DNA from: Chthoniobacterales bacterium
GTDB taxonomy: Bacteria > Verrucomicrobiota > Verrucomicrobiia > Chthoniobacterales > DASVRZ01
Assembly (NCBI GenBank): GCA_039930045.1
Contig: JBDSQB010000015.1
Location: 1 to 64,000, forward strand
Length of the DNA stretch: 64,000 bases
Reading direction: 5' to 3'
Shown in pieces: positions 6,001 through 61,970 of the stretch. The translations under genes and the position numbers were made by a program. Every line of letters starts with the position of its first letter. The first letter of the stretch is position 1. The notes below the pieces were generated by a model. It had not been told where the DNA came from. It did not search any database and saw only the letters and a list, made by a program, of their open reading frames with translations.

Positions 6001-7124
6001 TCAGCCTCGATGGCACCAATGATCACGTAACCCTACCGGCCGGCGTCGTCAGCAGTCTCAACGATTGCACGATTTCCGCCTGGGTGAAGCTGAACAGCGT
6101 GACCGCCTGGACGCGCATCTTCGACTTCGGCACCGGCACGGCGAACTACATGTTACTGACGCCCACCAACGGCTCCGGCGTCCGTTTCGCGATTAAGACG
6201 ACCCCTTCCGCCGAACAAGTGATCACCGGCAACACCGCGATCGCCGCCGGCGCTTGGACGCACGTGGCGGTGGTCTTGTCCGGCTCGACCGGGACTCTCT
6301 ACGTCAACGGCGTCTCCGTCGGGACCAACACGGCCATGACGCTCAGGCCCTCCAGTCTCGGTGCCACGACCTTGAATTACCTCGGTCGATCACAGTTCTC
6401 CGCCGACCCGTATCTCAACGGCGTGATCGATGAATTCCAGATCCACGGCTACGCGATGAGCGTGTCCGAGATCACCGCGCTGGCCACGCCCCCCGCGGCT
6501 CCCACCGGAGTCATTGCCACGGCGGGCGACGCCCTGGTCGCAACGATTTGGAATGCCTCGACGCGCGCCACCGGCTACAACGTCAAGTGCGCCACCACCA
6601 GCGGCGGTCCCTATACGACCGCGGCCGCCGGCGTGACGACGACTGCGTTCAGCGACTCCGGACTGACCAATGGCACGACCTATTATTATGTCGTCAGCGC
6701 GCTCAATGCCATCGGTGAGAGCGCCAATTCAGCGGAAACCAGCGCACGGCCGCTCTCTGCCGTGCAGACGTGGCGGCAAACCTATTTCGGCATGATCGAC
6801 AGCGTCAGCACCGCCGCCGACACGGCCGACCCGGATGGCGACGGCTGGACCAACGCCCAGGAGTTCCTCACCGGCACCGATCCCACGAACGCCACCAGCA
6901 CGCTGAAAATCAGCGAACTCCAAGTGAGCGGCAACGACTTCGTGGTAAGCTTTCCGTCCGTATCCGGAAAAACCTACCGCGTGGAGCGCTCCGACACGCT
7001 GCAAGCCGGCTCATGGACCACCCTGCTGAACAACATCGCCGGAACGGGCGGCGTCGTGCAGATCACCGACGCTGGCGGGGCCACGCAGAGCAAACATTTT
7101 TACCGAGTCGTCCTTCTTCCATAA
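1..7124 (+). CDS. Giant secreted modular protein with alginate-lyase-like domain (5' end outside window)
   Basis: The frame is open to the window edge (first full codon at 3), so the true start lies upstream; a GTG at 75 would give 2349 residues but is not convincing. Numbered from 75, an alginate-lyase/heparinase-type alpha-toroid lies at about 18-384. It is followed by FN3 (392-476), LamG (479-686), two cadherin-like/putative-Ig repeats (687-876), LamG (880-1076), FN3, LamG (1168-1374), FN3, a DUF1349-like beta-sandwich (1468-1653), FN3, a DNRLRE-like region (1741-1929), LamG (1936-2139) and FN3. Near the C-terminus is a thrombospondin-3/EF-hand-like segment, DPDGDGWTNAQEF, then a short beta-rich tail. 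The residues encoded before 75 (DPYAGGTAY) look like the end of another beta-sandwich domain. Probably an exported polysaccharide lyase with many glycan-binding modules; the substrate is not determinable. Leads the carbohydrate island. Confidence 0.85.
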   Translation, partial: ADPYAGGTAYSRSGSTVTPLSGDRVFQVNMTASTTPYAPFVHPGALHTEADFDRMKAKIAAGTAPWKTSYDQLTGARFASTGWGPTPAQYINRGGTAADNYTRAQWDAQSLYELSLRWKLTGDVAYANQAVWIANAWSGTLLGITGDSNQSLASGICGYLFATGGEILSTYPGWPAAQKQAYKDMMMRVFYIANEEYLWYHFGTPVNAGGNTHYRLNWDADNLASMAAIGILCDNRAVYQQAVDYFKFGSGNGRVERAAWYIHPDGTSQTEESGRDQFHNEGGWYSMGLLCQMAWNQGDDLFGYDNNRVLRAYEYIAKYNLGNDDVSWVYHSNTDTATNETLSSTGRWVGNYPAWELVYNHYANVQGVAAPWSKIAMNVIRPEGFPTLTSPASAADSLGLGSLTYARDDTTTSAAPSGLLAQWSKNQLILNWWGSPTATSYQIQRTASGASAAGPYATLGTAVEPNLNFTDTTVVNGGSYYYKVVAITPTGNLESPPLLANQALVASYSFEGNTNDGTGTRHATAGGGVTAPGYAAGFGGGQAISLNGTDQYVQLPVNSGLSRDVTLAGWVYWNGGNANQRVFDFGSEIEKFMMLTVKNGSGKLQFQMTTSRVNNGTITLVGPTMPTATWTHLAVTFNGETATLYVNGKPVASGSSPRLAPMFSQPFCYLGRSMWNPDAYFSGRIDNFRIANYGMTGKEIYNLWGQGGANAAPVFTANPIKPVDATQGINYSGSAQTLASLATDANGGTLTYSKVTGPAWLTVASNGALSGTPANGDVGVNAFVVRVTDSSGATDDANLYITVANVNDAPTWSTNPIYKLSVTQNIAYIGTLANDASDVDVGDTISFSKVSGPAWLAVAANGTLSGTPAAANVGVNSFVVRATDSSGAFNDATLTISVLAPALQTRFLLDGSASDSLGATTATLTGTPSYGTGVFNQSLLLDGTTNYVTLGTLSGMTYNDFTVATWVYWNGGNAPQRIFDFGSGTDEYIYLTPSNGSNMRFLIRENGVDQYVDTAPLPKNQWVHVAVTLNGSTATIYVNGVAKASNSAVTNEPANISLTLNYIGKSQYASDPLLNGQIDDFRLYNYALSASEVTALLSGVPAIMPTGVLAVPASSKITLTWNTSATAQSYSVKRGTTSGGPYTTIASGLTATNYTDTSGLSIGVTYYYVVSATNTLGESANSDEDSVVLSDLIAYLKLDETSGTTAADSSGNGFDATLVNTPTRISGLYGNAVNLASGSSQYATLPAGVMNGQTDFTLSAWVKLGSISTWARIFDFGTGTTNYMFLCPAPSTANKMRFAIRTPSVTEQQINSGTIVTTTGVWTHVAVTLSGSVGTLYINGVVAGTNSAMTLTPSSLGSTTLNYIGKSQFNDPYLNGAVDEFRIYNRALTAAEVLAQATPAPTVPAALTATGNDGYVTLSWPQADAATSYTVKRATVSGGPYATVTNGSAVTATTFLDTGLTNGSTYYYVVSANNWLGSSADSTEAFGIPYAISWSGQDIGAVAAAGSSSYATGTYTVIGSGADIWSTLDEFYFRSVLVGGDCSLTARVVSVQNTNAWAKAGVMVRSSLAANASNAAVLLTPTTTNGVTWQTRTTDGGTSASSNTTGIAPPYWVRVVRAGNTLQGYRSADGSTWVSTGSATITLGTNVYIGLAVTSHLDGTPCTATFDNVTLVSLPVAPAALTATAGYQAASLGWTASDGATSYNIKRALVSGGPYTVLATGVSALSYADANLTAGTTYYYVVSPVNAAGEGLDSPEASVIPLTPGTTVTFNSASAQDGYVRESSETSNAGGTITSTSLRIGDDSSDRQYKTIVSFDTSSIPDDATIISATLKMRRSGGSGTNPFTTHGTCYVDVKSGSGYSASTTLQIGDFEATADVATVATMSNAASTGAWSTGSLNQAGRGLINKTGTTQCRVYFTLDDNDDRGNDYVSFNSGEDSASGYAPVLEVTYNQDAPGMQPNVSLHFNETTGTTAADSSGNGWNGTLVNGPAWTTGKFANAVSLDGTNDHVTLPAGVVSSLNDCTISAWVKLNSVTAWTRIFDFGTGTANYMLLTPTNGSGVRFAIKTTPSAEQVITGNTAIAAGAWTHVAVVLSGSTGTLYVNGVSVGTNTAMTLRPSSLGATTLNYLGRSQFSADPYLNGVIDEFQIHGYAMSVSEITALATPPAAPTGVIATAGDALVATIWNASTRATGYNVKCATTSGGPYTTAAAGVTTTAFSDSGLTNGTTYYYVVSALNAIGESANSAETSARPLSAVQTWRQTYFGMIDSVSTAADTADPDGDGWTNAQEFLTGTDPTNATSTLKISELQVSGNDFVVSFPSVSGKTYRVERSDTLQAGSWTTLLNNIAGTGGVVQITDAGGATQSKHFYRVVLLP

Positions 7125-7127
7125 TCT

Positions 7128-7490
7128 ATGAAACTCATTTGCCCGCATTGCACTCAGAACCTCGAAGTCGCCGACGAATGGGCGGGCCACGCCGTGGATT
7201 GCCCGAGCTGCCAGCAGGTGCTCACCGTGCCAGCCGTGGGAGAGGCGATTCCGCTTCGCTGCGGCAGCCCCGAAGCCTCCGACGCCCACGCTACGCCGTT
7301 CCGTGCCGGGCACTTCCTCGCCGTCGAAGCCGCCGCAGCGAAGCGGGGGTGGGGGATTTGGGGGATTTCTGCTGATGATCTCATTCTCGCGGACGGAGAG
7401 TTCGGTTACCGCATTCGCGCCTACAACACCGGAGGCTACTCTGCCTACTCGAACGTCGCTCCGGGCGCGCCCGCGCCGCAGACCAAATGA
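7128..7490 (+). CDS. Chimeric small ORF: zinc-ribbon N-terminus joined to an FN3-type tail (probable scar)
   Basis: Residues 1-37 form a zinc ribbon with two CxxC pairs (CPHC and CPSC), a common N-terminal module in verrucomicrobial proteins. The last 30 residues (ending around GYRIRAYNTGGYSAYSN) look like the final strands of a fibronectin type III domain and do not belong with a zinc ribbon. The two parts are joined across a 96-base inverted-repeat element (7251-7346) and a G-rich stretch. It starts three bases after the giant protein's stop. I read it as a recombination or insertion scar that happens to stay open, not as a conserved gene. Translation is possible, function unknown. Confidence 0.45.
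   Translation: MKLICPHCTQNLEVADEWAGHAVDCPSCQQVLTVPAVGEAIPLRCGSPEASDAHATPFRAGHFLAVEAAAAKRGWGIWGISADDLILADGEFGYRIRAYNTGGYSAYSNVAPGAPAPQTK
7251..7346. repeat. REP/REPIN-like inverted repeat, two 15-bp arms
   Basis: CCGCTTCGCTGCGGC at 7251-7265 is the exact reverse complement of 7332-7346, with a 66-bp spacer. Each arm can itself fold (CCGC pairs with GCGG around a 6-base loop), so the whole resembles two inverted REP units. A G-rich stretch follows (7345-7368). I saw no second copy in this window, so its dispersed nature is inferred. Confidence 0.45.
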
Positions 7491-7546
7491 GCCGCGCGCC
7501 CCGCATGACCGCCACCACCATCCACCAACGCCCGTAAGCAATCCCC

Positions 7547-8995
7547 ATGGACACCTCTTCTGCTCACCCGCATCACCACGAAACCGCGCTGAAGGATCGC
7601 GTGCCGCTGCGCGAAAAAATAGGCCTCGGCTGCGGCCGCATGGTCGTCGAAGGCACCCACGGCTCCCAATACGTCCTCGCGAATCCGATCTACAACATGA
7701 CGATGGGCATGAGCCCCGCGTTGCTCAGCCTGATCGACTTCATCAAGCGCATCTGGGACGCGATGATCGACCCGGTCATCGGTCAATTCTCCGATAATTT
7801 TCGCTCCCGCTGGGGCCGGCGCCTTCCGTTGATGGCCGTCTCACTCGTGCCGTTGACGTTGCTTTTTGCCGCGTTGTGGTGGTTTCCCCGCGACGCCTCG
7901 GGCACAGGGCTCTTCTGGCATCTGCTGATCGTCTCCCTGGCCTTCTATGCCTGCTACGCGCTGTTCTCGATGCCGTTGAACGGACTGCTGCTGGAAGCGA
8001 CCGACGATTATCACGAGCGCAGCCGCATCGTAGGCGTGTCGCTCGCCTTCGGGTTCGTCATCCAGATCGGCAGCCAGTGGCTGCCGTGGCTCGTTTATCA
8101 ATTTCACAATTCCGCGACCGGCGCAGCCGATCCCATCACCGGCATCCGCTGGGTCTCGGCGGGTTGTGTCGTCTTTTTTGTCGCGCTTGGCCTCGTGCCG
8201 CTCCTGCTCTGCCGCGAGCGCAACTACCACCGCGTGGCCGCCCGTCAGGAAAAAATCGCGCTCCTGGCCAGCCTCCGTGCTGTCTGGCACAACAGCCAGT
8301 TCATGACTGTGCTCTGGGCGCGGTTCATCTTCTGTTTCTGCTTCAGCCTCGTCGGCATCATGTCGAGCTACATGAACGTCTATTACGTCTTCGGCGGCGA
8401 CAAGCAGGCCGCGTTCTCCGCACTGCGTTTCATCGGCTCGTCCTATCACGTCGCCGCGCTGCTCACCTCGCTTTTCTTTTTTCCGTGGCTCGCCCGCCGC
8501 ATCGGGAAAAAGGCCGCGCTGCAAACCGCCGCCGGGCTGCTCATCGTCGGCTGCGTCTGCAAACTCTTCCTCTACATCCCCGGCCAGCCGTGGTGGCAGC
8601 TCATCGTCCTCTCGTTCAACGGCGTAGCCAACGCCGGCTTCACGCTCATCCCCACTTCAATGATCGCCGACCTCGCCGATGAGGACGAATACGCCACCGG
8701 CCTGCGCCGCGAGGCTGTCTTCGGCTCGCTGCTCGCCTGGTTCGAGAAAGCGGGCAGTTCCCTTGGCGGCCTCATCTCAGGCCTCCTCCTCGTCTGGATC
8801 GGCTTCAACGCCAAATCCACCGGCGGCGTCCAAACGCCTCACACCTTGGAATTGATGAAGTTCAGCTACTTCGCCGCGCCCGCCATCGGCGCCGTGACCG
8901 CGCTAGTTCTCCTCCGCCGCTACACCCTCACCGAGGCGCGCGCCTACGAAATCGAAGCCGCGCTCAAACAACGCCGCGCCTCTGCCGCGCAATAA
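7547..8995 (+). CDS. GPH-family sugar:cation symporter (MFS)
   Basis: A 482-residue polytopic membrane protein of the glycoside-pentoside-hexuronide:cation symporter family (MelB/YicJ type). The family signature after TM2 is clear: DPVIGQFSDNFRSRWGRRLP places the conserved Asp and the RWGRR loop at about residues 75-90. About twelve hydrophobic segments follow. The cytosolic N-terminus is His-rich (HPHHH). In this island, which has no SusC/SusD pair, it is the only visible importer and probably takes up mono- or oligosaccharides or uronates released by the neighbouring enzymes. The family is certain; the substrate is inferred from context only. The start ATG is 56 bp after the preceding ORF, and GH28 follows after 7 bp. 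Confidence 0.88.
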   Translation: MDTSSAHPHHHETALKDRVPLREKIGLGCGRMVVEGTHGSQYVLANPIYNMTMGMSPALLSLIDFIKRIWDAMIDPVIGQFSDNFRSRWGRRLPLMAVSLVPLTLLFAALWWFPRDASGTGLFWHLLIVSLAFYACYALFSMPLNGLLLEATDDYHERSRIVGVSLAFGFVIQIGSQWLPWLVYQFHNSATGAADPITGIRWVSAGCVVFFVALGLVPLLLCRERNYHRVAARQEKIALLASLRAVWHNSQFMTVLWARFIFCFCFSLVGIMSSYMNVYYVFGGDKQAAFSALRFIGSSYHVAALLTSLFFFPWLARRIGKKAALQTAAGLLIVGCVCKLFLYIPGQPWWQLIVLSFNGVANAGFTLIPTSMIADLADEDEYATGLRREAVFGSLLAWFEKAGSSLGGLISGLLLVWIGFNAKSTGGVQTPHTLELMKFSYFAAPAIGAVTALVLLRRYTLTEARAYEIEAALKQRRASAAQ

Positions 8996-26684: not shown

Positions 26685-27539
26685 CTAGATTCCCAGACTC
26701 CAGGAGAGCAGGCGATAAGAATCGGACCAAACTCCGGCCTTGGTGCAGTGCATGACGACCACGATGGAATCGCGCAGCGCACTGCGTCCACTGGAGGCGA
26801 GGCAGAAGCCGGCGAGTTCGGTGTAACCCGTTTTCAGCCCGTTGCAGAGCGGGTAGGTGACGAGGAGTTTGTTGGTGTTTCTGTAAGTAACAATGCCGCG
26901 TCCGGGGCGTCGGAAATCGAGCGTTTTCATCGAGGTGATACGCCGGACCACGGGGTTGCTGTAGGCGGTGCGGGCGATGATCGCGATGTCGCGGGCGCAG
27001 GAATACTGGCCCTCGGCAGGGAGTCCGTTGGGGTTCAGAAAATGGGAATTAACCGCGCCGAGTTCGCGGGCGAGCTGGTTCATTTTTACCGCAAACGCCG
27101 GGAGCGAACCCGCGTTGTCACGAGCTAGGGCGCGGGCGCAATCGTTGCCGCTGTGGACGAGCAGCGCCTCGAGCAATGCCATGCGCGTGTAGGTTTCCCC
27201 GGCTTGCAGATAGACCTTGCTCGGCTCGCAAAGGGTGTCCGTTTCCTGAATCGTGACCGTGCGCGAAAGGTCGCCATCGCGGATGATAACGAGCGCGGTG
27301 AGCAGTTTTTGCATGCTCGCGGCGGGTTGGTGAAAGGTGGAGTTTTTCTCGTAAAGAATCGTCCCGGTGCGGGCGTCGATCACCAGCGCGCTGCGGGCGG
27401 AAACCTTCGGGGCGTTGTCGCGGGTGTTGGTCGCGGAAAATGAGCGCAGCGGCACCGAGGTCAGCTCCGCCTGCGTCTGGCCGGTGGCCGACCACAGAAT
27501 GGCGAGGGCGATGAAAGTGCGAAAAAGCCGGACAAGCAT
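26685..27539 (-). CDS. D-alanyl-D-alanine carboxypeptidase (peptidase S11, DacA-like)
   Basis: A 284-residue low-molecular-weight penicillin-binding protein that trims the terminal D-Ala of peptidoglycan stem peptides in the periplasm. ATG 27539 gives a clean signal peptide (1-24); an upstream in-frame start would add a non-signal extension. The three active-site motifs are intact: S75-MQ-K78, S130-G-N132 and K236-T-G238. It lacks the long C-terminal beta domain and amphipathic anchor of E. coli PBP5, so it may be soluble. Transcribed divergently from the UBact operon; the 133-bp gap (27540-27672) should hold both promoters. Confidence 0.92.
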   Translation of the reverse strand: MLVRLFRTFIALAILWSATGQTQAELTSVPLRSFSATNTRDNAPKVSARSALVIDARTGTILYEKNSTFHQPAASMQKLLTALVIIRDGDLSRTVTIQETDTLCEPSKVYLQAGETYTRMALLEALLVHSGNDCARALARDNAGSLPAFAVKMNQLARELGAVNSHFLNPNGLPAEGQYSCARDIAIIARTAYSNPVVRRITSMKTLDFRRPGRGIVTYRNTNKLLVTYPLCNGLKTGYTELAGFCLASSGRSALRDSIVVVMHCTKAGVWSDSYRLLSWSLGI

Positions 27540-27672: not shown

Positions 27673-27849
27673 ATGCCAGACCGATTGCAAAAGCCGTTGG
27701 TTCCCATGCCGGGCGGCCCAAATCATCCCTCCGACCAAGGCCCGAAATCGCCGACCGCGCCGCGTCCCGACACTCAGGAGTTGCTCAAGCGCATGCGCAA
27801 AGTGGACCCCGAGCAATCGAAGCGTTACCGCCAGCGCACCGGGCAATAA
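27673..27849 (+). CDS. ubact: Ubiquitin-like protein UBact (Pup-like proteasome tag)
   Basis: A 58-residue protein, rich in Pro and charged residues and probably disordered, ending KVDPEQSKRYRQRTGQ. This tail matches the UBact family, the Pup-like modifier reported in Verrucomicrobia, Nitrospirae and a few other Gram-negative phyla. It ends in Gly-Gln, so by analogy with Pup the glutamine would need deamidation by a Dop-like enzyme before PafA-like ligation to substrate lysines. Its stop codon abuts the prcB start with no spacer, strong support for a shared operon. No SD consensus is obvious upstream. No pafA, dop or mpa/ARC gene lies in this window. Confidence 0.93.
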   Translation: MPDRLQKPLVPMPGGPNHPSDQGPKSPTAPRPDTQELLKRMRKVDPEQSKRYRQRTGQ

Positions 27850-28647
27850 ATGTCTGACTCCGCCCAGTTTTCCGGTAGCGGCATTTCGGGCGATTTCCCG
27901 GAGGTGTTGCAGCGTTATGGAGTCACGTCGCTGCCCTCACTTTCGTTGCATGGAAAAGAATTTACCCAGACGCAGGCTACGACCATTCTCGCCATCAAAT
28001 ACGCGGGCGGCGTCCTTATCGCCGGTGATCGCCGCGCGACTGCCGGAAATGTGGTCGTCTATGATCGCGCCGATAAGGTTCTGGAGATCGACCGTTTCTC
28101 CGTCATGGCCATCGCGGGTGTCCCGGCGACGGCTTGGGAAATGGCGCGGGTGCTGGAGCATTCGTTTCACTTCTATCGGCGCACGCAGCTTCAGGAAATG
28201 AGCGTCGATGGCAAGGTCCGCACGCTCTCGAAATTGCTCCGCGACAACCTCGGGCTCGCTCTGCAAGGCGTCGGCGTCGTGGTGCCGATTTTCGCCGTCT
28301 ATGATAAGGATGCAACTCCGGGCGAGCGCCTCTATTTTTACGACGTGATGGGTGCGCAATTCGAGGTCGCCGATTTTGCGGTCAGCGGCTCGGGGTCACC
28401 CGCCGTTCGTGCCGTGCTGAATTACGAGAATCGCTGGGGCAAAAAACCGCTCGCCGACCGCAACGAAAAGGAAGCGATCTCACTGGCCCTCCGCGCCTTG
28501 GAAACGGCCGCCGAAACGGACACTGCGACCGGTGGATTCGACCGGCGTGCGAACATTCTGCCCATTCTAAAAACCGTCACCAAACTCGGCGTGCAGACGG
28601 TCGCTGATAACGTTCTAACTCCGCTCTACAAGAAAGGCCTCGCATGA
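27850..28647 (+). CDS. prcB: 20S proteasome beta subunit
   Basis: A 265-residue N-terminal-nucleophile protease subunit. A 43-residue propeptide ends before TTILAIKYAGGVLIAGDRR, so Thr44 becomes mature Thr1 after autocleavage. Catalytic partners are in register: Asp17 (GDRR, residue 60) and Lys33 (DRADK, residue 76). This predicts an active threonine protease rather than an HslV-like or decayed copy; the long propeptide and actinobacterial-like TTIxAxKYxGG motif fit PrcB, not HslV. It directly follows ubact and overlaps prcA by 4 bp (ATGA), giving the ubact-prcB-prcA order. Confidence 0.95.
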   Translation: MSDSAQFSGSGISGDFPEVLQRYGVTSLPSLSLHGKEFTQTQATTILAIKYAGGVLIAGDRRATAGNVVVYDRADKVLEIDRFSVMAIAGVPATAWEMARVLEHSFHFYRRTQLQEMSVDGKVRTLSKLLRDNLGLALQGVGVVVPIFAVYDKDATPGERLYFYDVMGAQFEVADFAVSGSGSPAVRAVLNYENRWGKKPLADRNEKEAISLALRALETAAETDTATGGFDRRANILPILKTVTKLGVQTVADNVLTPLYKKGLA

Positions 28648-29417
28648 CGGACGAGCCCTACCGTTACGTCGAGGCGATGGCGAATCGCCGTGAGTACGTT
28701 GAAACTCAACTCGTCGCCGCCAGCCCGGTCGTGGCCCTGAATTACAACGGCGGAATCCTCTTTCTAACCATTGCGCCGGAGCCGCAGAAAATCTTCGAGA
28801 TCTACGACCGCATCGCCCTCGGAGCGATGGGGCATCCGGGCGATGTCGAACGGCTGCGGATGACGGCCATTGAAATCGCCAGCGCGGAGGGATTTACGCG
28901 TTCGCCGGCGGATGTGTCGCTGCGGCGACTTGCGAATTTTTCCTTCAGTCCGCTGCTAAAAAACACCTTCGAGCAGGTCTATGGCTCGGTCTTCATCGTG
29001 CGCCTGCTTTTCGCGGAGTTAGGTGCGACTTCGAAGACGGATTTGTTTGTCCGAGTGGACTTCGATGGAACTCTGCAAACCGGCGGCGGCGCAACGAGGA
29101 AATCCTTCGGAGTATTAGGCGGAACCACGACGGCAGAGCAGGCGATGAATCAGTTTCTCCTAACCAAAGCGAAGCCCAATCTAACCTTGGACGCCGCCCT
29201 GCAAATCGCCCTCCTCACCTGGGCTGTTGGAAGCCAGGTCGAGCCCGTTGATTCACCAGACGAGGGGAAACTGACCGAGATCCTCCGCGACGCGCTGTCC
29301 TCGAAAGTGGTCGAGGCCGCCGTTCTCGATAGAAACACTGGCAGCAAGGTGAGCTATCGGACTTTAAATGAAATGGAACTCCGCAAAACCGTGAACCGGA
29401 TCACCCGAGAGCGTTGA
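28644..29417 (+). CDS. prcA: 20S proteasome alpha subunit
   Basis: A 257-residue subunit forming the outer gating rings of the 20S core. SVVALxYxGGxLF-type strands of the alpha family appear as SPVVALNYNGGILFLTIAP, then KIFEIYDRIALGAMGHPGD and, later, GGTTTAEQAMNQFL. It lacks an N-terminal Thr nucleophile, as expected. The N-terminus before the fold (MTDEPYRYVEAMANRREY) would form the gate and H0 helix. The C-terminus ends ITRER. Overlaps prcB by 4 bp. The following gene starts about 36 bp downstream and may be on the same transcript. Confidence 0.93.
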   Translation: MTDEPYRYVEAMANRREYVETQLVAASPVVALNYNGGILFLTIAPEPQKIFEIYDRIALGAMGHPGDVERLRMTAIEIASAEGFTRSPADVSLRRLANFSFSPLLKNTFEQVYGSVFIVRLLFAELGATSKTDLFVRVDFDGTLQTGGGATRKSFGVLGGTTTAEQAMNQFLLTKAKPNLTLDAALQIALLTWAVGSQVEPVDSPDEGKLTEILRDALSSKVVEAAVLDRNTGSKVSYRTLNEMELRKTVNRITRER

Positions 29418-29452: not shown

Positions 29453-30127
29453 ATGAAAAAATATCTCCCTCTCTTGCTGCTCCCGTTTTTTTCCGTCAGT
29501 TGCCTGGCAGACGAGCAGACGCGCCAGGTGCAGGCGGCCTTGAGCGAGGCGGGTTTCTATTATGGCACTGCCGACGGCCAGATGGGCGAGGAGACGCGCG
29601 CCGCGCTGCGTCGGTTTCAGATTCGCAATGGGCTCGACGTGAGCGGCTCGATGACGCCTGAGACCCTGGCAGCGCTTAAGTTAAAGAAAAAAGAAACCCG
29701 CAGCGTCGCCTCCGAGGACGAGGCGCAGGTCGCGGCCACGGCGAAAAATCCCGATGCTTTTCTTGCGCCACAAAGCCGCCGTCCGGCTCCCACTCCGCCG
29801 CCCCGCTCACCGGTGCGCGAGTCTTTTGCCGACACCGATCTGGCGGAATCCACGTCGCGGGATCAATCCGCGACCCTGCTCAACGCCCAGCGCAAGCTCC
29901 TGCAACTCGGCTATTACAAATCCGCCCCAAATGGATTGTCCGGACCTGAGACGGAGACGGCGCTGCTCCGTTTCCAGCACGCGATGCATCTGCGGCTTAC
30001 CGGCACGCTCGACTCCGACACGCGCGAGGCGCTCTTCGACACGCCGCCGCCGGTGCCGACAAAACCGTTTCGTGCGTCGAAAAATCGTCCGCCGGGCACG
30101 GTTTTACGCGGAGTCTGGGTGCAGTGA
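29453..30127 (+). CDS. Secreted protein with two peptidoglycan-binding domains
   Basis: A 224-residue envelope protein. I prefer ATG 29453, which starts a signal peptide (PLLLLPFFSVSC, cysteine 17 possibly lipidated although the lipobox is not canonical), over a TTG that overlaps prcA. Two PG_binding_1-like helical domains are visible at about 22-74 (VQAALSEAGFYYGTADGQMG) and 140-195 (AQRKLLQLGYYKSAPNGLSG), separated by a Pro/Arg-rich linker. No enzymatic domain. Probably anchors to the cell wall. Any link with the adjacent proteasome genes is only positional. Confidence 0.8.
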   Translation: MKKYLPLLLLPFFSVSCLADEQTRQVQAALSEAGFYYGTADGQMGEETRAALRRFQIRNGLDVSGSMTPETLAALKLKKKETRSVASEDEAQVAATAKNPDAFLAPQSRRPAPTPPPRSPVRESFADTDLAESTSRDQSATLLNAQRKLLQLGYYKSAPNGLSGPETETALLRFQHAMHLRLTGTLDSDTREALFDTPPPVPTKPFRASKNRPPGTVLRGVWVQ

Positions 30128-33830: not shown

Positions 33831-35396
33831 ATGTCTGACACACGCAAAGCAGTAGGAATCGATTTGGGCACCACCTTTTCGGCCATCGCCCACATCGACG
33901 CCTACGGAAAACCGCAAATCATTCCCAATGCCGAGAGCGAACGCATCACGCCATCGGTGATTCTTTTCGACGGCAGTAACGCCATTGTCGGCACGCTGGC
34001 CAAGCAAAATTCCGTCGCCGAGCCGGAGAAAATCGTCGATTTCGTCAAACGCGAAATGGGCAAAAGCAAGACCGCCTTTCATCGCGAATTCGACGGGCGC
34101 ACCTTCTCCGCCGAGGAACTTTCCGCGCTGATTCTCAAGAAACTCAAGATCGACGCGGAGAAATATCTCGGCGAATCCGTCACCGACGCCGTGATCACGG
34201 TCCCGGCCTATTTCAACGACGCCGAACGTCTCGCCACGATTCACGCGGGCCAGCTTGCGGGTTTCAACGTCCTGCAAATCATCAACGAGCCGACTGCCGG
34301 TTCGCTCGCCTACGGCCTCGACAAACTGGACGAGGACCAGACCGTTTTCGTCTTCGATTTGGGCGGGGGCACCTTCGACGTCACGATCATGCGGATCGAA
34401 AATCATCACATCCAGATGATCGCCACCAACGGCGACCACCGTCTCGGCGGCAAGGATTGGGACGACATCATTGTCAATCTGGTCGCGGACGAGTTTGATC
34501 GCGTTCACGGGGAAAATCCGCTGCTCGACTTGCAGAGTTATCAGGATCTCCAAAGCCGCGCGCTCGCCGCCAAAATCCAGCTTTCCAGCCGTCAGCGCAC
34601 GGCGCTCGTTCACAGTTACAACGGCAAAAGCGTTAAGATCGAGCTCACCCGTCAGGACTTTGAAAACCTTTCCGGCCACCTCATCGAGAAGTGCAAATCC
34701 ATCTGCGAAATCGTCATGCAGGAAGCCAAAATGAACTGGGGCCAAATCGACAAAGTCCTGCTCGTTGGCGGCATGACTCGCATGCCGATGGTCCGCGACA
34801 TGATCGCCGCTCTCAGCAACGCCCCGACGGCCGACGAGGTCAGTCCCGACGAGGCCGTGTCCCTTGGCGCGGCGATTCAGGCGATTTTGCTCGTCCTCGG
34901 CGAAGAAGACACCTCCGGCCAGCACACGCTCCCGGCAGAAACGCGCCAGCAATTTTCCAATCGCGACGGCTCGCTCATCAAGGTCTCGAACATCACCTCG
35001 CACACCCTCGGAGTGGTCCTCTGGGACGACAATCGCATGGAGGAATACGTCTTCCCGATGATCAACAAAATGACCGCGATTCCGTGCGAATTGAAGAATT
35101 CCTTCGGCACCGCCACGGCCAACATGAAGAGCGTCGTCGTCCGCGTCGTCGAGGGCGAAAGCTCACTTCCCAGCGAATGCACGCCGCTCGGCACCGCCGC
35201 ATTTGAGTTGCCTCCGTATCTGCCGAAAGGCTCGCCGGTGGAATTGACTTATCGCTACAACGCGAGCCAGATTCTCGAAGTCGTCGTGGATGGTTTTGGC
35301 AAGCAAAAGGTCATCGAGATTCAACGAAACATGGGGCTTTCCGAGGAGGAAATCGCCCAGGCCACAGCCAACATGTCGCTTATTCGCGTAGAATAA
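33831..35396 (+). CDS. Hsp70-family chaperone, lid-less (DnaK-like)
   Basis: A 521-residue protein. The nucleotide-binding domain is intact: GIDLGTTFSAIAHID (phosphate 1), NEPTAGSLAYGLD, FDLGGGTFDVTIM (phosphate 2) and LVGGMTRMPMVR (adenosine motif). A beta-type substrate-binding domain follows (about 375-500), but the helical lid and EEVD-like tail of ~610-640-residue DnaK are absent. This fits the shortened Hsp70 homologues of the HscA/YegD-like spread, not the housekeeping DnaK. It sits between a GrpE-like gene and a J-like/FGE-like gene. No dnaJ proper is present. Confidence 0.88.
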   Translation: MSDTRKAVGIDLGTTFSAIAHIDAYGKPQIIPNAESERITPSVILFDGSNAIVGTLAKQNSVAEPEKIVDFVKREMGKSKTAFHREFDGRTFSAEELSALILKKLKIDAEKYLGESVTDAVITVPAYFNDAERLATIHAGQLAGFNVLQIINEPTAGSLAYGLDKLDEDQTVFVFDLGGGTFDVTIMRIENHHIQMIATNGDHRLGGKDWDDIIVNLVADEFDRVHGENPLLDLQSYQDLQSRALAAKIQLSSRQRTALVHSYNGKSVKIELTRQDFENLSGHLIEKCKSICEIVMQEAKMNWGQIDKVLLVGGMTRMPMVRDMIAALSNAPTADEVSPDEAVSLGAAIQAILLVLGEEDTSGQHTLPAETRQQFSNRDGSLIKVSNITSHTLGVVLWDDNRMEEYVFPMINKMTAIPCELKNSFGTATANMKSVVVRVVEGESSLPSECTPLGTAAFELPPYLPKGSPVELTYRYNASQILEVVVDGFGKQKVIEIQRNMGLSEEEIAQATANMSLIRVE

Positions 35397-35428
35397 ATCC
35401 ACTCTTCGTCCCCCTTTAGAGTTTACCC

Positions 35429-37069
35429 ATGTCGCTGCCGTCTCCACTCCCAGATGACCCCCGCAAATGGACTGGTTGGAAGAACTACAACTCGCAAAAT
35501 TTCTACGAGCGTCTCTGCCTCAGCGTTGAGCAAAATCCGAGCAACGAGCTGATCGAGGATCACACCCGACAGCTCCTGGTCTGGTGGCAAAAGAAGCTCC
35601 CGCTGAAGAACCAGCCGAGCAATCCGCTCGCTCAGATCCTGCGCGACGGGCTCGATGTTGCCCCGAGTTTTCTGGCCGAGGCGCGCCTGGGACTTTGCAA
35701 TCCAGTCACCCGCAAGACGATTGACGAGAGCCTTCTCGCCTCGGCGAAAACGTCGATGACGGCGGAGTTTCGCCGTGTGTTTTCCATCATCGCCGCCGGC
35801 AACGAACTGAGCGAGGACGGCGAGGCGAGTCTGCTGCGCTTCGGGCTGAAACATGGCTTTTCCGAAGAGGAAGTTGCCGCGTTGATCGGGGAGGAAATGG
35901 CCTCGCAAAACGTCACCCGCATCGTCCGGGAAGCCGCCCCGCCGCCGCCACAGGCGAGTTCCATTCCAATCTCCAGCGCCGCACCCGGTGGCAACGACCC
36001 GGTTGCCGAGTTTAAGCGTTTTCTAAAACTGAGCGGTCTCGACAGTGACAGCATGACGGACGATCAGCGCGACGCCCTCATCAACATGGCCGAAAACCTC
36101 GGTCTCAACGGCGGCGACGCCGAGGACATCGTGGACGATTACCTGGAGGAACTCGACTCGCAGCCGCAGAAGCCCGGTGCCACGGTGCCACCTCCGACGC
36201 CATTGCGCTCGCCCTCGCCCGCCCCCATCAAATCGAGTCCCGTCGCCAAACCGGGCGCGCCCGCCGCCGTCCGTCCGAATACCCCGCGCATCACCACCAC
36301 CATTTCTCCGGCGGAAGAGCGCAGCAAATACCCGAATTTCACCAACACCCTCGGCCAGCAACTCCTCCTCGTCCCCTCCGGCACCTTCCTCATGGGCAGC
36401 ACGGAACCCGACGCCGCGCCCAACGAAGGCCCGTGCAACAAGGTCACCGTGAGCCGCTTTTACATGAGCCGCCACCCAGCGACGTGCGCCGTTTACGAGC
36501 AATTCAGTCCGGCGCACCGGTCGAATCGCATCCCGCTCGCGGGGGATAATCACCCCGTGCTCTACGTCAGCAGCGCTGATGCGATCAAGTTTTGCCAGTG
36601 GCTCAGTCAAAAGGAACGCCGCAAGTATCGGCTGCCGACTGAGGCCGAATGGGAATACGCCGCGCGCGGCACCGACAATCGTATCTACCCTTGGGGCGAC
36701 CATCTCAACAACCCAGGCGCGCTGGGCAATTTCGCGGACGCCAACACGAAGTTTTCCTGGAGCGACATGGAGGTGAACGACGGATTCGCCGAGACGTCGC
36801 CCGTCGGCCAATATCCGCGCGGAGCCAGCGCCTTCGGCATCGAAGACATGGCTGGGAACGTCTGGGAATGGTGCAACGACTACTTTGAAAACTACAAACC
36901 GAACGACCGCATAAATCCCAAGGGGCCGATGAACGGCACGAAACGCGTCTATCGCGGCGGAAGCTGGAAGTCGCGTTTCAGCAGCCTCCGGGCGACCAGC
37001 CGCAACTCGAACACGGTCGATTACCGCTGCAACGACCTCGGTTTCCGGATCGTCTGCGAGTGCGAGTAA
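35429..37069 (+). CDS. J-domain-like / tandem helical repeat / FGE-sulfatase-fold protein
   Basis: A 546-residue protein with four parts. Residues 23-101 (FYERLCLS, IEDHTRQLLVWWQKKLP, then NPVTRKTID) follow a J-domain layout, but the HPD position is not conserved. Residues 111-160 and 191-243 are two similar helical repeats (EFRRVFSIIAAGNELSEDGE and EFKRFLKLSGLDSDSMTDDQ). A Pro-rich linker runs from about 244 to 300. Residues 303-545 are an FGE/SUMF1 fold (YRLPTEAEWEYAARG, DMAGNVWEWCND, YRGGSWKSRF). The cysteines that catalyse formylglycine formation are replaced, Ser and Leu standing at the human C336/C341 positions, so it is unlikely to activate sulfatases. Probably a cochaperone or binding protein of the preceding Hsp70. 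Confidence 0.8.
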   Translation: MSLPSPLPDDPRKWTGWKNYNSQNFYERLCLSVEQNPSNELIEDHTRQLLVWWQKKLPLKNQPSNPLAQILRDGLDVAPSFLAEARLGLCNPVTRKTIDESLLASAKTSMTAEFRRVFSIIAAGNELSEDGEASLLRFGLKHGFSEEEVAALIGEEMASQNVTRIVREAAPPPPQASSIPISSAAPGGNDPVAEFKRFLKLSGLDSDSMTDDQRDALINMAENLGLNGGDAEDIVDDYLEELDSQPQKPGATVPPPTPLRSPSPAPIKSSPVAKPGAPAAVRPNTPRITTTISPAEERSKYPNFTNTLGQQLLLVPSGTFLMGSTEPDAAPNEGPCNKVTVSRFYMSRHPATCAVYEQFSPAHRSNRIPLAGDNHPVLYVSSADAIKFCQWLSQKERRKYRLPTEAEWEYAARGTDNRIYPWGDHLNNPGALGNFADANTKFSWSDMEVNDGFAETSPVGQYPRGASAFGIEDMAGNVWEWCNDYFENYKPNDRINPKGPMNGTKRVYRGGSWKSRFSSLRATSRNSNTVDYRCNDLGFRIVCECE

Positions 37070-59725: not shown

Positions 59726-61399
59726 TTAACTCCACTGGCTGCGGCGGCAGCCGAGCCAGGCCACGAAAATCGCCACCACGATCTGGCTCCCGAGAAACCA
59801 GATGCAGGCAGGAGTGTCGGCGAGCGGAGTTTGCACGACGCGTTGCAGGATCGTGTAGTAGTTCGTTTCGCGGAAGGTTTGCAAGTAACCCGACCAAGCC
59901 CAGTAGGCGGCGATGAAAGGTTTCACCACATTCGCCAGCCAAAGCGGCAAGGCTAAAAAAGCGCCGGAAAGTGGAAGCTGGAATCCGACGAAATAGATCG
60001 AGGCGAGCGACGCTTGCTCGGGCGTTTTCAAGCAGGCGGAAAGGGCGAGCGAGATTGCGGTGACGGCGGCGTTGACCAGAAAAAGCAGGAACGCCTGGGT
60101 GGCGAGCGAGCCGGGAAGGTGGCAGACGATGTTCACAAAGGCGGCCATCCAGAGGCTTTGCGCGACGACCCAGAAACCGAGGTAGGCGAGTTTGCTGGCG
60201 AGGTAGGCGAGGGGACTGAGGCCGGCGAGTTTTTCTTTTTCGAAAATGGTGCGCTCGTTGGCGATCTCGCGTGCGCCGTTGTTCGAGGCCATGAGGGTGA
60301 GCAGGATGACCTGAAACATGGCGATGCCGGAGAGCAGGCTGCCGTCGCGGGTGGAGGATTGGATGTAGGCGTTGGCTTCGGCGAGCTGTCGAACGACGTT
60401 GGACTCAAACCGAAGGTTGAGGTTTTGGATTTCCGGCAGGCCGTGAATGGCGAAGATGACGACCAAAAGCGGGAAGCCGAAGAGCATGGCAAACTGCAAA
60501 ATACGTCCGCCAGAGTCGCGCCGCCAAAGGAGCCAGCGGCGGCTGAGCAAGGTGAAAAACTGCGAGAGGAAGCCGGGCGTGTCGAGCGGAGCGGAGGTTT
60601 CACCGGGGCTTTCCTGAGTCGAATCCAACTCGAATGCGGGGCCATGTTTTTTCCAGGAGGCGGACCATTTTTCCGGTTTGCGCTTGCCGAGGCGGTCGAA
60701 GATTTCCTCGTGGTGGAGGACGTCGAAGTAATGGGCGAGGTGCTCGGTCGGGCCGTGATACGCCACATTCCCTCCAGTGAGGACGGTGACGCTGTCGTAG
60801 AGTTCGAGGTGCGCGAGGCTGTGGGTGACGTTGAGAATGAGCCGGTTTCCATCCTTGGAAAGCCGGTGGAGCAGGTCGATGATTTCGCGCTCCGACTTGG
60901 GGTCGAGTCCGCTGAGGACTTCATCGCAAAGGAGCAGGCGCGGCGATGTGAGCATCTCGATGGCGAGGGACAGCCGGCGTTTTTGTCCGCCTGAAAGGAC
61001 GGCGACCGGACGGTCGGTGACGGCGTCGAGTCCGCAGTCGAGGAGCGTTTTTTCGATGCGCTCGGTTTGCTCGGCCTCGCGCAATTCCGCCACGCGCAGA
61101 CGCAGCGCGGAGGCGAGGGATTCGCGGACGGTCAGCGCGTCGTAGGCAATGCTGAATTGCGGCACGTAACCGATCTCACTAGGATGCAAGTCGCCCTCGG
61201 TCAGCAGGTCGCGGCCCTGCCAGAGGAGGGTGCCCTCGGAGGGGTTGTGCAGGCCGGCGATGAGGCGCAGCAGGGTGGTTTTTCCACAACCCGACGGCCC
61301 GAGAATCGCGCCGAAATGACTCGAGGGCCAATCCAGCGTGAGGTGCTGGAGCAGCGGCAACTCGCCTGCGTGATAGGAAATGTCGCGGAGTTCTAGCAC
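59726..61399 (-). CDS. ABC transporter with fused ATPase and permease (ABCG-like)
   Basis: A 557-residue half-transporter. The N-terminal ATPase has Walker A LGPSGCGKTTLLRL (about 34-47), signature LSGGQKRRLSLA and Walker B LLLCDEVLSGLD, then a linker (about 245-275). The C-terminal ABC-2 membrane domain has six hydrophobic segments, with NERTIFEKEKLAGLSPLAYL as the typical ABC-2 coupling region. This domain order (NBD then TMD) is that of eukaryotic WHITE/ABCG proteins and bacterial relatives. It likely dimerises for export. Substrate unknown. Tail-to-tail with hldD. Confidence 0.9.
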   Translation of the reverse strand: MLELRDISYHAGELPLLQHLTLDWPSSHFGAILGPSGCGKTTLLRLIAGLHNPSEGTLLWQGRDLLTEGDLHPSEIGYVPQFSIAYDALTVRESLASALRLRVAELREAEQTERIEKTLLDCGLDAVTDRPVAVLSGGQKRRLSLAIEMLTSPRLLLCDEVLSGLDPKSEREIIDLLHRLSKDGNRLILNVTHSLAHLELYDSVTVLTGGNVAYHGPTEHLAHYFDVLHHEEIFDRLGKRKPEKWSASWKKHGPAFELDSTQESPGETSAPLDTPGFLSQFFTLLSRRWLLWRRDSGGRILQFAMLFGFPLLVVIFAIHGLPEIQNLNLRFESNVVRQLAEANAYIQSSTRDGSLLSGIAMFQVILLTLMASNNGAREIANERTIFEKEKLAGLSPLAYLASKLAYLGFWVVAQSLWMAAFVNIVCHLPGSLATQAFLLFLVNAAVTAISLALSACLKTPEQASLASIYFVGFQLPLSGAFLALPLWLANVVKPFIAAYWAWSGYLQTFRETNYYTILQRVVQTPLADTPACIWFLGSQIVVAIFVAWLGCRRSQWS

Positions 61400-61426
61400 G
61401 GGATCAGGCTAGCGAGGGAGAACGCC

Positions 61427-61449
61427 GGGCGCACTGAGAAAAAGCGCCC
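61427..61449 (-). terminator. Hairpin just after a stop codon, possible terminator
   Basis: GGGCGC (61427-61432) and GCGCCC (61444-61449) form a 6-bp stem with an 11-base loop, overlapping the stop codon of the small secreted protein gene. No T-run follows on the minus strand, so a rho-independent terminator is doubtful. Confidence 0.25.
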
Positions 61450-61970
61450 TACTTGGCGTCCCAACCGCGCGTGGTGACGGTGCTGGGATTGGTGTATTCG
61501 CCGACGATTTTTCCGTCCTGCGAGACGCGCACCCAGACGCCTTTGACGGAGTCGGCCACCTTGATGCGACCGCCATTCGGAAAATAATAACTTCCGACGA
61601 GATTCGATTTGATGAGTTCGATGTCCTTGGTCGTCACAATCTGCGGCGACTTGTTCCTGAGCGATGGAATCGCCTGCGAACCCGTCACCCGCGCCACCAC
61701 GTCCTCATCCTTCTTTTTGCCGAGTTTCTGGTGCTCCACAAAGATGACGTAATTGAGCGTCAGCCCGGACAAATCGGCAAAGGTTCCATTCACGAGCTTG
61801 ATGTCGTAATTGACCTTGCTCACGAGTTTGGCGTCCGACCCTTGTCCTTCGGCACGCGGCTTCTCGCCCTTATCGACGGTCTTTTCGACCGTGATCTGCA
61901 CCGTGCCGAGAGCAGCGGCATTCGCCATCAAGCCTACTGCCATTAACCAACCGAGGAGCGTCTTCTTCAT
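61449..61970 (-). CDS. Small secreted protein of unknown function
   Basis: A 173-residue exported protein: signal peptide (MKKTLLGWLMAVGLMANAAA), then a mature domain with alternating beta-type strands (TVQITVEKTVDKGEK, NYDIKLVNGTFADLSGLTLN, YVIFVEHQKLG, YYFPNGGRIKVADSVKGVWV). Looks like an Ig-like/beta-sandwich domain. No family recognised. Upstream of the ABC transporter on the same strand (49 bp gap). Confidence 0.65.
   Translation of the reverse strand: MKKTLLGWLMAVGLMANAAALGTVQITVEKTVDKGEKPRAEGQGSDAKLVSKVNYDIKLVNGTFADLSGLTLNYVIFVEHQKLGKKKDEDVVARVTGSQAIPSLRNKSPQIVTTKDIELIKSNLVGSYYFPNGGRIKVADSVKGVWVRVSQDGKIVGEYTNPSTVTTRGWDAK

Follow-up and report, generated by a model that had tools for sequence, protein, structure and literature searches.

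The window analysed here, a stretch of 64,000 nucleotides from the start of contig JBDSQB010000015.1 of a Chthoniobacterales genome, contains the tag and core-protease part of what is, in our opinion, a complete Pup-type (UBact) proteasome system of a Gram-negative, soil-type bacterium; the combined analyses put the probability of this reading at roughly four in five. Judging from its sequences, the system is probably working or was so until recently. The genome (3.52 Mb, 23 contigs, 99.88% complete) encodes the whole set of six genes, i.e., UBact, PrcB, PrcA, ARC, Dop, and PafA, distributed over three loci on three contigs.

The first line of evidence is the organization of the tag-core operon, which lies on the forward strand. 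The ubact gene (27673..27849; ATG start, TAA stop) encodes a Pup-like tag of 58 aa with the C-terminus KRYRQRTGQ, its terminal Gln codon occupying positions 27844-27846. As stated in the original prediction, which was made from the DNA alone and gave the end of the tag as RYRQRTGQ, the tag gene abuts prcB (27850..28647; proteasome beta subunit, Pfam Proteasome E 2e-27) with a gap of 0 nt between stop and start, and prcB is overlapped over 4 nt by prcA (28644..29417; proteasome alpha subunit, PF00227 E 2.3e-6). The three genes form one tight unit, which is probably translationally coupled. Because the tag lies at −4 to +5 nt from prcB in 82 of the 86 cases among order tags with a readable tail, the adjacency is not due to chance. 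A scan for sigma-70-like promoters near the operon returned 0, with 0.5 expected.

The assignment of the tag to the UBact family is supported by two profiles that it passes, Pfam PF20513 (E 3.2e-19, 68.9 bits, cut-off 27.8) and NCBIfam NF033388 (E 5.2e-21, 74.6 bits, cut-off 35). In a Pfam scan of the tag at E ≤ 10, PF20513 was the sole family listed, the Pup family being absent. The N-terminal MPDR fits the MP[ED]R start of most relatives, and the C-terminal RTGQ supplies the Gly-Gln (alternatively Gly-Glu) ending that isopeptide formation is predicted to require. The tag is present in a single copy in the genome and, among the full-length tags sampled in the order, has the lowest score; a search of solved structures with it gave no match (best E 5.8).

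The core subunits are recognizable as a protease. PrcB begins with a 43-residue prosequence, after which the alignment places Thr1 (codon 27979-27981), Asp17 (28027-28029), and Lys33 (28075-28077) in the register originally predicted, and solved mature beta chains agree with it, aligning from Thr1 (for example, residue 44 of PrcB with residue 1 of 1q5q_H). This catalytic triad is identical in 85 of 85 aligned PrcB sequences of the order, own included, one of the 86 collected having been left out as too short. PrcA aligns with the solved PrcA of Mycobacterium tuberculosis (Mtb; E 2.6e-16). The two proteins would constitute a bacterial 20S proteasome with separate alpha and beta subunits, and processing of the beta subunit is predicted.

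The second line of evidence comes from the rest of the genome. The ligase, the deamidase, and the ATPase, correctly noted at the outset as missing from the window, all have homologues elsewhere: an ARC/Mpa-type ATPase and Dop are adjacent on contig C18, with Dop starting 2 nt after the ATPase gene, and one PafA-type gene is located on contig C23 (at about 60417-61804). The original prediction would have been contradicted by a genome devoid of pafA/dop homologues, which is not what is observed. The ATPase carries OB and AAA domains and aligns with solved Mpa (E 1.6e-102). Dop aligns over residues 2-457, across the Dop-loop region, with solved Dop 4b0r, its best solved match (E 6.8e-119). It should be noted that UBact alone passes its NCBIfam cut-off; the other five proteins are highly significant yet sub-threshold, namely ARC (TIGR03689, E 1.1e-137, 459.9 bits vs 504.75), Dop (TIGR03688, E 5.3e-146, 487.2 bits vs 492.3, a narrow miss of the equivalog cut-off), PrcB (TIGR03690, E 4e-50, 170.6 bits vs 191.9), PrcA (TIGR03691, E 1.1e-23, 83.9 bits vs 139.05), and the pieces of PafA (TIGR03686, best piece 206.5 bits vs 551.3). 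The genome encodes two proteasome-family (PF00227) proteins; therefore, no HslV is seen, and a third, HslV-type PF00227 protein was not found in the whole genome. A whole-genome search for a PAC2 protein/chaperone was likewise negative.

By analogy with the homologous actinobacterial pathway, Dop would convert the C-terminal Gln of UBact to Glu. PafA, using ATP, would then join the gamma-carboxylate of this Glu to lysines of target proteins, and Dop would also be expected to strip the tag. ARC would capture the tagged protein, dock on the alpha ring by its C-terminal tail, and thread the target into the barrel formed by PrcA and PrcB, to be cut there by PrcB once its prosequence has been removed at Thr1.

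The pafA gene is split over two frames (L013:6418 to ~6828, then ~6829-7805). Compared with 16 relatives, one base is missing, probably from a T run: five bases are found where six are expected before a conserved Phe-Thr, and the break falls at four consecutive T. When 98 kb were scanned for reading frame by codon usage, 30 same-strand frame switches were detected, and in pafA alone does the upstream frame continue beyond 52 nt after the switch, reaching 142 nt; the downstream frame has no start codon within 90 nt. On this ground, a generally error-ridden assembly was dismissed as the cause, a single error being possible; the same finding speaks for a real lesion. Decay of PafA found no support either. 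The protein departs from 8 of 175 columns invariant in 20 relatives, vs 10 of 201 columns invariant in 30 relatives for Dop, and PafA has therefore not been drifting. Most likely, either the base was lost by mutation very recently or the assembly contains a single error at this place; if the break is real, the strain would currently be unable to tag.

The alternative that the ligase has truly been lost from the strain, which would leave UBact, Dop, ARC, and PrcBA as a decaying proteasome or as a tag-independent one, with ARC or the bare core acting on untagged proteins, is in our view improbable, at odds of about one in a handful. It draws on the single-base break in the only PafA, on the absence of a comparable break elsewhere in the 98 kb, and on a relative (G022, described below) that has tag and core but lacks the other three. 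Against it, PafA is as constrained as Dop and contains no further stop or shift, all other parts are intact, and the draft relatives G195, G191, and G137 show indels in PafA or Dop too, as assembly errors would. The idea that translation crosses the break by a programmed −1 frameshift setting the level of the ligase would accommodate the four-T run, the frames that are both open around the site, and the halves that jointly cover the whole model. It is nevertheless very improbable, as no other genome was seen with a shift at that base, full-length PafA proteins of relatives are listed as single frames, and G195 and G191 owe their breaks to deletions of ~23 nt and ~49 nt, respectively. We also take the T-run site to be a poor slippery heptamer, which counts against the idea. 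A programmed frameshift common to the relatives was rejected, since no shared site was found in 20 rescanned genomes, most of them picked because they had at least three matches.

The two deletions just mentioned (L097/L098 pair) are both out of frame and affect PafA in G195 and Dop in G191. The former lies near the GCHxNYL motif, close to the region of the pafA break in the window genome, and the latter near the same motif region. Both sit in fragmented drafts, and the pieces found in another genome, G168, stop at contig ends. The accumulation of breaks around GCHxNYL in G195, G191, and the window genome may be a coincidence or an assembly weak spot.

The third line of evidence for a complete UBact-proteasome pathway is the joint occurrence of its genes in relatives. 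No other genome was found in the family of the window genome. In a sample of 197 genomes of the order, ligase-family (PF03136) genes are present in 105 and UBact in 99 (98 above cut-off); the two occur together in 97 genomes, PF03136 alone in 8, and UBact alone in 2. A phylum-wide sample gave UBact matches in 12 of 387 genomes. Ten of these matches exceed the cut-off; four belong to this order and six to f16, another family of the class, all six f16 genomes with UBact holding two PF03136 genes. Pup-like homologues in Verrucomicrobia are described as very sporadic in a passage of one published account (PMC7947786); by contrast with that description, the counts given above suggest that UBact-type tagging is common in one order.

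Two genomes of the order depart from the usual content. G022 (locus L105; 96% complete) keeps UBact, PrcB, and PrcA, has no PF03136 gene, and shows only a distant AAA match to the ATPase model, the full gene set being present in G091 of the same genus. Either the core is able to persist without the pathway or the draft is incomplete. G003 carries, beside the usual tag operon, a second UBact-like tag with the end RSGQ (L106; G003:C227 16653-16781), around which neither prcB nor prcA was found within 4.9 kb.

The fourth line of evidence is gene order, compared at 83 loci: the best 80 of 92 from a PrcB search, comprising 73 from Verrucomicrobiota/PVC (many of them Chthoniobacterales, Spartobacteria, and Udaeobacter) and seven from Nitrospirota, together with three chosen loci. 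The loci are not independent genomes, L108 and L239 being apparently the same contig and L230 and L235 belonging to one assembly. Among the matches listed, all seven Nitrospirota loci contain ARC-Dop-UBact-PrcB-PrcA in this order, with PafA next in the five whose sequence reaches that far. In f16, all six genes follow one another, in order, in one operon (4/4 loci). The three separated loci of the window genome are therefore read as one pathway. Throughout Chthoniobacterales the set is divided: UBact, prcB, and prcA stay together and PafA is mostly elsewhere; in three loci, chosen for sharing a contig, it lies no more than ~6 kb from the tag operon. ARC and Dop are adjacent in 19 of 30 Dop loci of the order, and the other 11 show no ATPase match within a flank of up to 1.5 kb; the adjacency is thus not universal in the order. 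For the genomes compared in one earlier study, the part of the text available describes gene order as rigidly conserved (PMC3511204). A separation of UBact-PrcB-PrcA from Dop, ARC, and PafA in function, the latter three serving something else and the proteasome acting chiefly with the linked cell-wall genes described below, would be in keeping with the three contigs and with a core operon that runs into cell-wall genes across the order, but is hardly credible in view of the joint occurrence of UBact and PF03136 and of the single operons of Nitrospirota and f16.

The ends of the tags bear on the role of Dop. Among 98 order tags read in 97 genomes, Gln is the last residue of 79 and Glu that of 19; the count leaves out two matches, a truncated tag in G181 and a weak one in G061, and no conservation of the tail is claimed from it, since 86 of the 98 tags were searched for with a pattern that itself contained [RK]QR. 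A Dop-type gene is listed for 17 of the 19 Glu-ended tags, the remaining two being those of G168, whose Dop is in fragments, and G070 (74% complete), for which no Dop is listed. Gln-ended tags are accompanied by a Dop-type gene in 69 of 79 cases, and the ten without one include drafts with broken or fragmentary Dop as well as G022. Dop is thus mostly kept where deamidation is not needed, and therefore tag removal, not only deamidation, probably maintains it: a depupylase role predicts retention of Dop regardless of the tag end. The original prediction had taken the terminal Gln to imply a deamidase step. The RTGQ end and the finding of Dop agree with this; the Gln itself turns out not to be special, order tags ending in either residue. 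Mixed Gln and Glu ends are mentioned for actinobacteria and beyond in passages of two earlier papers (PMC3511204; PMC2588565).

The ATPase tail and the alpha-ring pocket differ jointly from the mycobacterial pair. Published excerpts describe mycobacterial Mpa as ending in GQYL, with the Tyr contacting Arg26 or Glu119 of the alpha subunit and the carboxylate contacting Lys52 (PMC9599533; PMC8755798; PMC12288473). The ATPase of the window genome ends in SRII instead, and a [VI][VI] end is shared by 31 of 31 UBact-type ATPases whose tails were read (20 from the order, 7 from Nitrospirota among the matches listed, and 4 from f16). PrcA columns were examined in 84 loci plus the window, which yielded usable sequences from 71 order members (own included), 6 Nitrospirota, and 4 f16, the rest being dropped. 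The equivalents of Lys52 and Asp144 are Lys and Asp, respectively, in 81/81, and the equivalent of Arg26 is Arg in 0/81. In the PrcA of the window genome, aligned to Mtb PrcA, the pocket Lys is kept as K49 and the Arg26 position is occupied by Ala25; the Mtb numbering of the pocket residues is partly our assumption. Aliphatic tails, combined with a retained Lys and an absent Arg partner, suggest another docking code, i.e., one of their own for UBact-type proteasomes. The carboxylate of an aliphatic tail and the Lys of the alpha subunit would then carry the docking, with no role for a GQYL tail and its Tyr.

A further feature of the operon is its continuation into cell-wall genes. A PG_binding_1 protein with two such stretches (29453..30127, forward strand; PF01471 E 3.3e-30), secreted and a probable lipoprotein with a signal peptide read by eye as ...SVSC, is encoded next, 35 nt beyond the stop of prcA; a TTG further upstream, at 29414, could also serve as its start. 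Sixty order loci of the 83-locus set extend at least 2.5 kb past prcA. Among the matches listed, a PG-binding gene lies downstream of prcA on the same strand in 56/60 of them, an Amidase_3 gene is interposed between prcA and the PG-binding gene in 55/60, and both genes are present in 54/60; the amidase starts at most 50 nt after prcA in 58 of 59 measured loci, and all five amidases scanned belong to PF01520. No amidase match was obtained in the window, where the PG-binding gene alone remains after prcA. Among the matches listed, the PG-binding protein was found in none of the 6 Nitrospirota loci with prcA, and no prcA-linked amidase was found in the Nitrospirota or f16 loci compared. The linkage suggests shared expression with cell-wall genes. 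Neither an aliphatic ATPase tail nor a prcA-linked amidase was encountered in the literature searched, much of it available as extracts, which is weak evidence of absence.

We tentatively propose, at odds somewhat below even, that docking in UBact proteasomes follows a code of its own, with a tail of two aliphatic residues reaching the alpha-subunit Lys without a Tyr-Arg contact, and that the core operon of Chthoniobacterales has been rewired from conjugation genes to a periplasmic amidase/PG-binding module. If this is true, the rewired operon would express protein degradation and wall remodelling together.

Other genes surround the operon in the window. A D-alanyl-D-alanine carboxypeptidase (26685-27539; PF00768, 1.6e-51) is divergent and lies upstream of the tag; neither it nor the pseudouridine synthase and alpha-glucosidase encoded upstream in the window were seen next to the operon at any of the 83 loci compared, among the matches listed. 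Downstream, positions 33831-37069 encode a DnaK-like protein and, after it, a formylglycine-enzyme-like one, both read by eye.

The UBact-proteasome system of Gram-negative bacteria was reportedly named by Lehmann et al. in 2017. The system described here shares with it the tag family, the position of the tag beside prcB-prcA, and the presence of Dop, PafA, and ARC homologues in the genome; unlike the system reported in 2017, it is spread over three loci, has a broken pafA, and is adjoined by a PG-binding gene. The actinobacterial Pup system (Mpa, Dop, Pup, PrcB, PrcA, and PafA of Mycobacterium) resembles it in enzyme families, inferred chemistry, a Dop-type deamidase, a Gln/Glu C-terminus, the beta catalytic triad, and the alpha pocket Lys. 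It differs from that system in a tag that belongs to another Pfam family and ends in RTGQ instead of GGQ or GGE, in the aliphatic ATPase tail in place of GQYL, in the replaced Arg26 equivalent, and in the lack of a PAC2 match. Nitrospirota UBact loci (L249-L255) have the same genes, the [VI][VI] ATPase tail, and PrcB proteins 55-56% identical to that of the window genome, but theirs is one contiguous operon, with no amidase or PG-binding gene beside prcA among the matches listed. The f16 operon of the same class likewise encodes the same six genes, with the ATPase tail VV and the tag tail RYRQRTG[E], and unlike the set described here is contiguous, has a Glu-ended tag, and lacks a linked amidase.

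UBact in Verrucomicrobiota is already published, and the genome described here is a further member with variant features. Pup was named in Verrucomicrobia in 2008, as a passage in PMC2588565 has it, and proteasome genes are mentioned for Methylacidiphilum, a published verrucomicrobial case, in part of PMC2474590. Apparently new are how widely the system occurs in the order, the division of its operon, the signature formed by tail and pocket, and the link to cell-wall genes. The set offers concrete tests: the retention of Dop with either tag end, the tail/pocket pair, and the linkage between proteasome and cell wall. With UBact in about half of the 197 genomes sampled from the order, a tagging pathway that has received little study may be widespread in soil.
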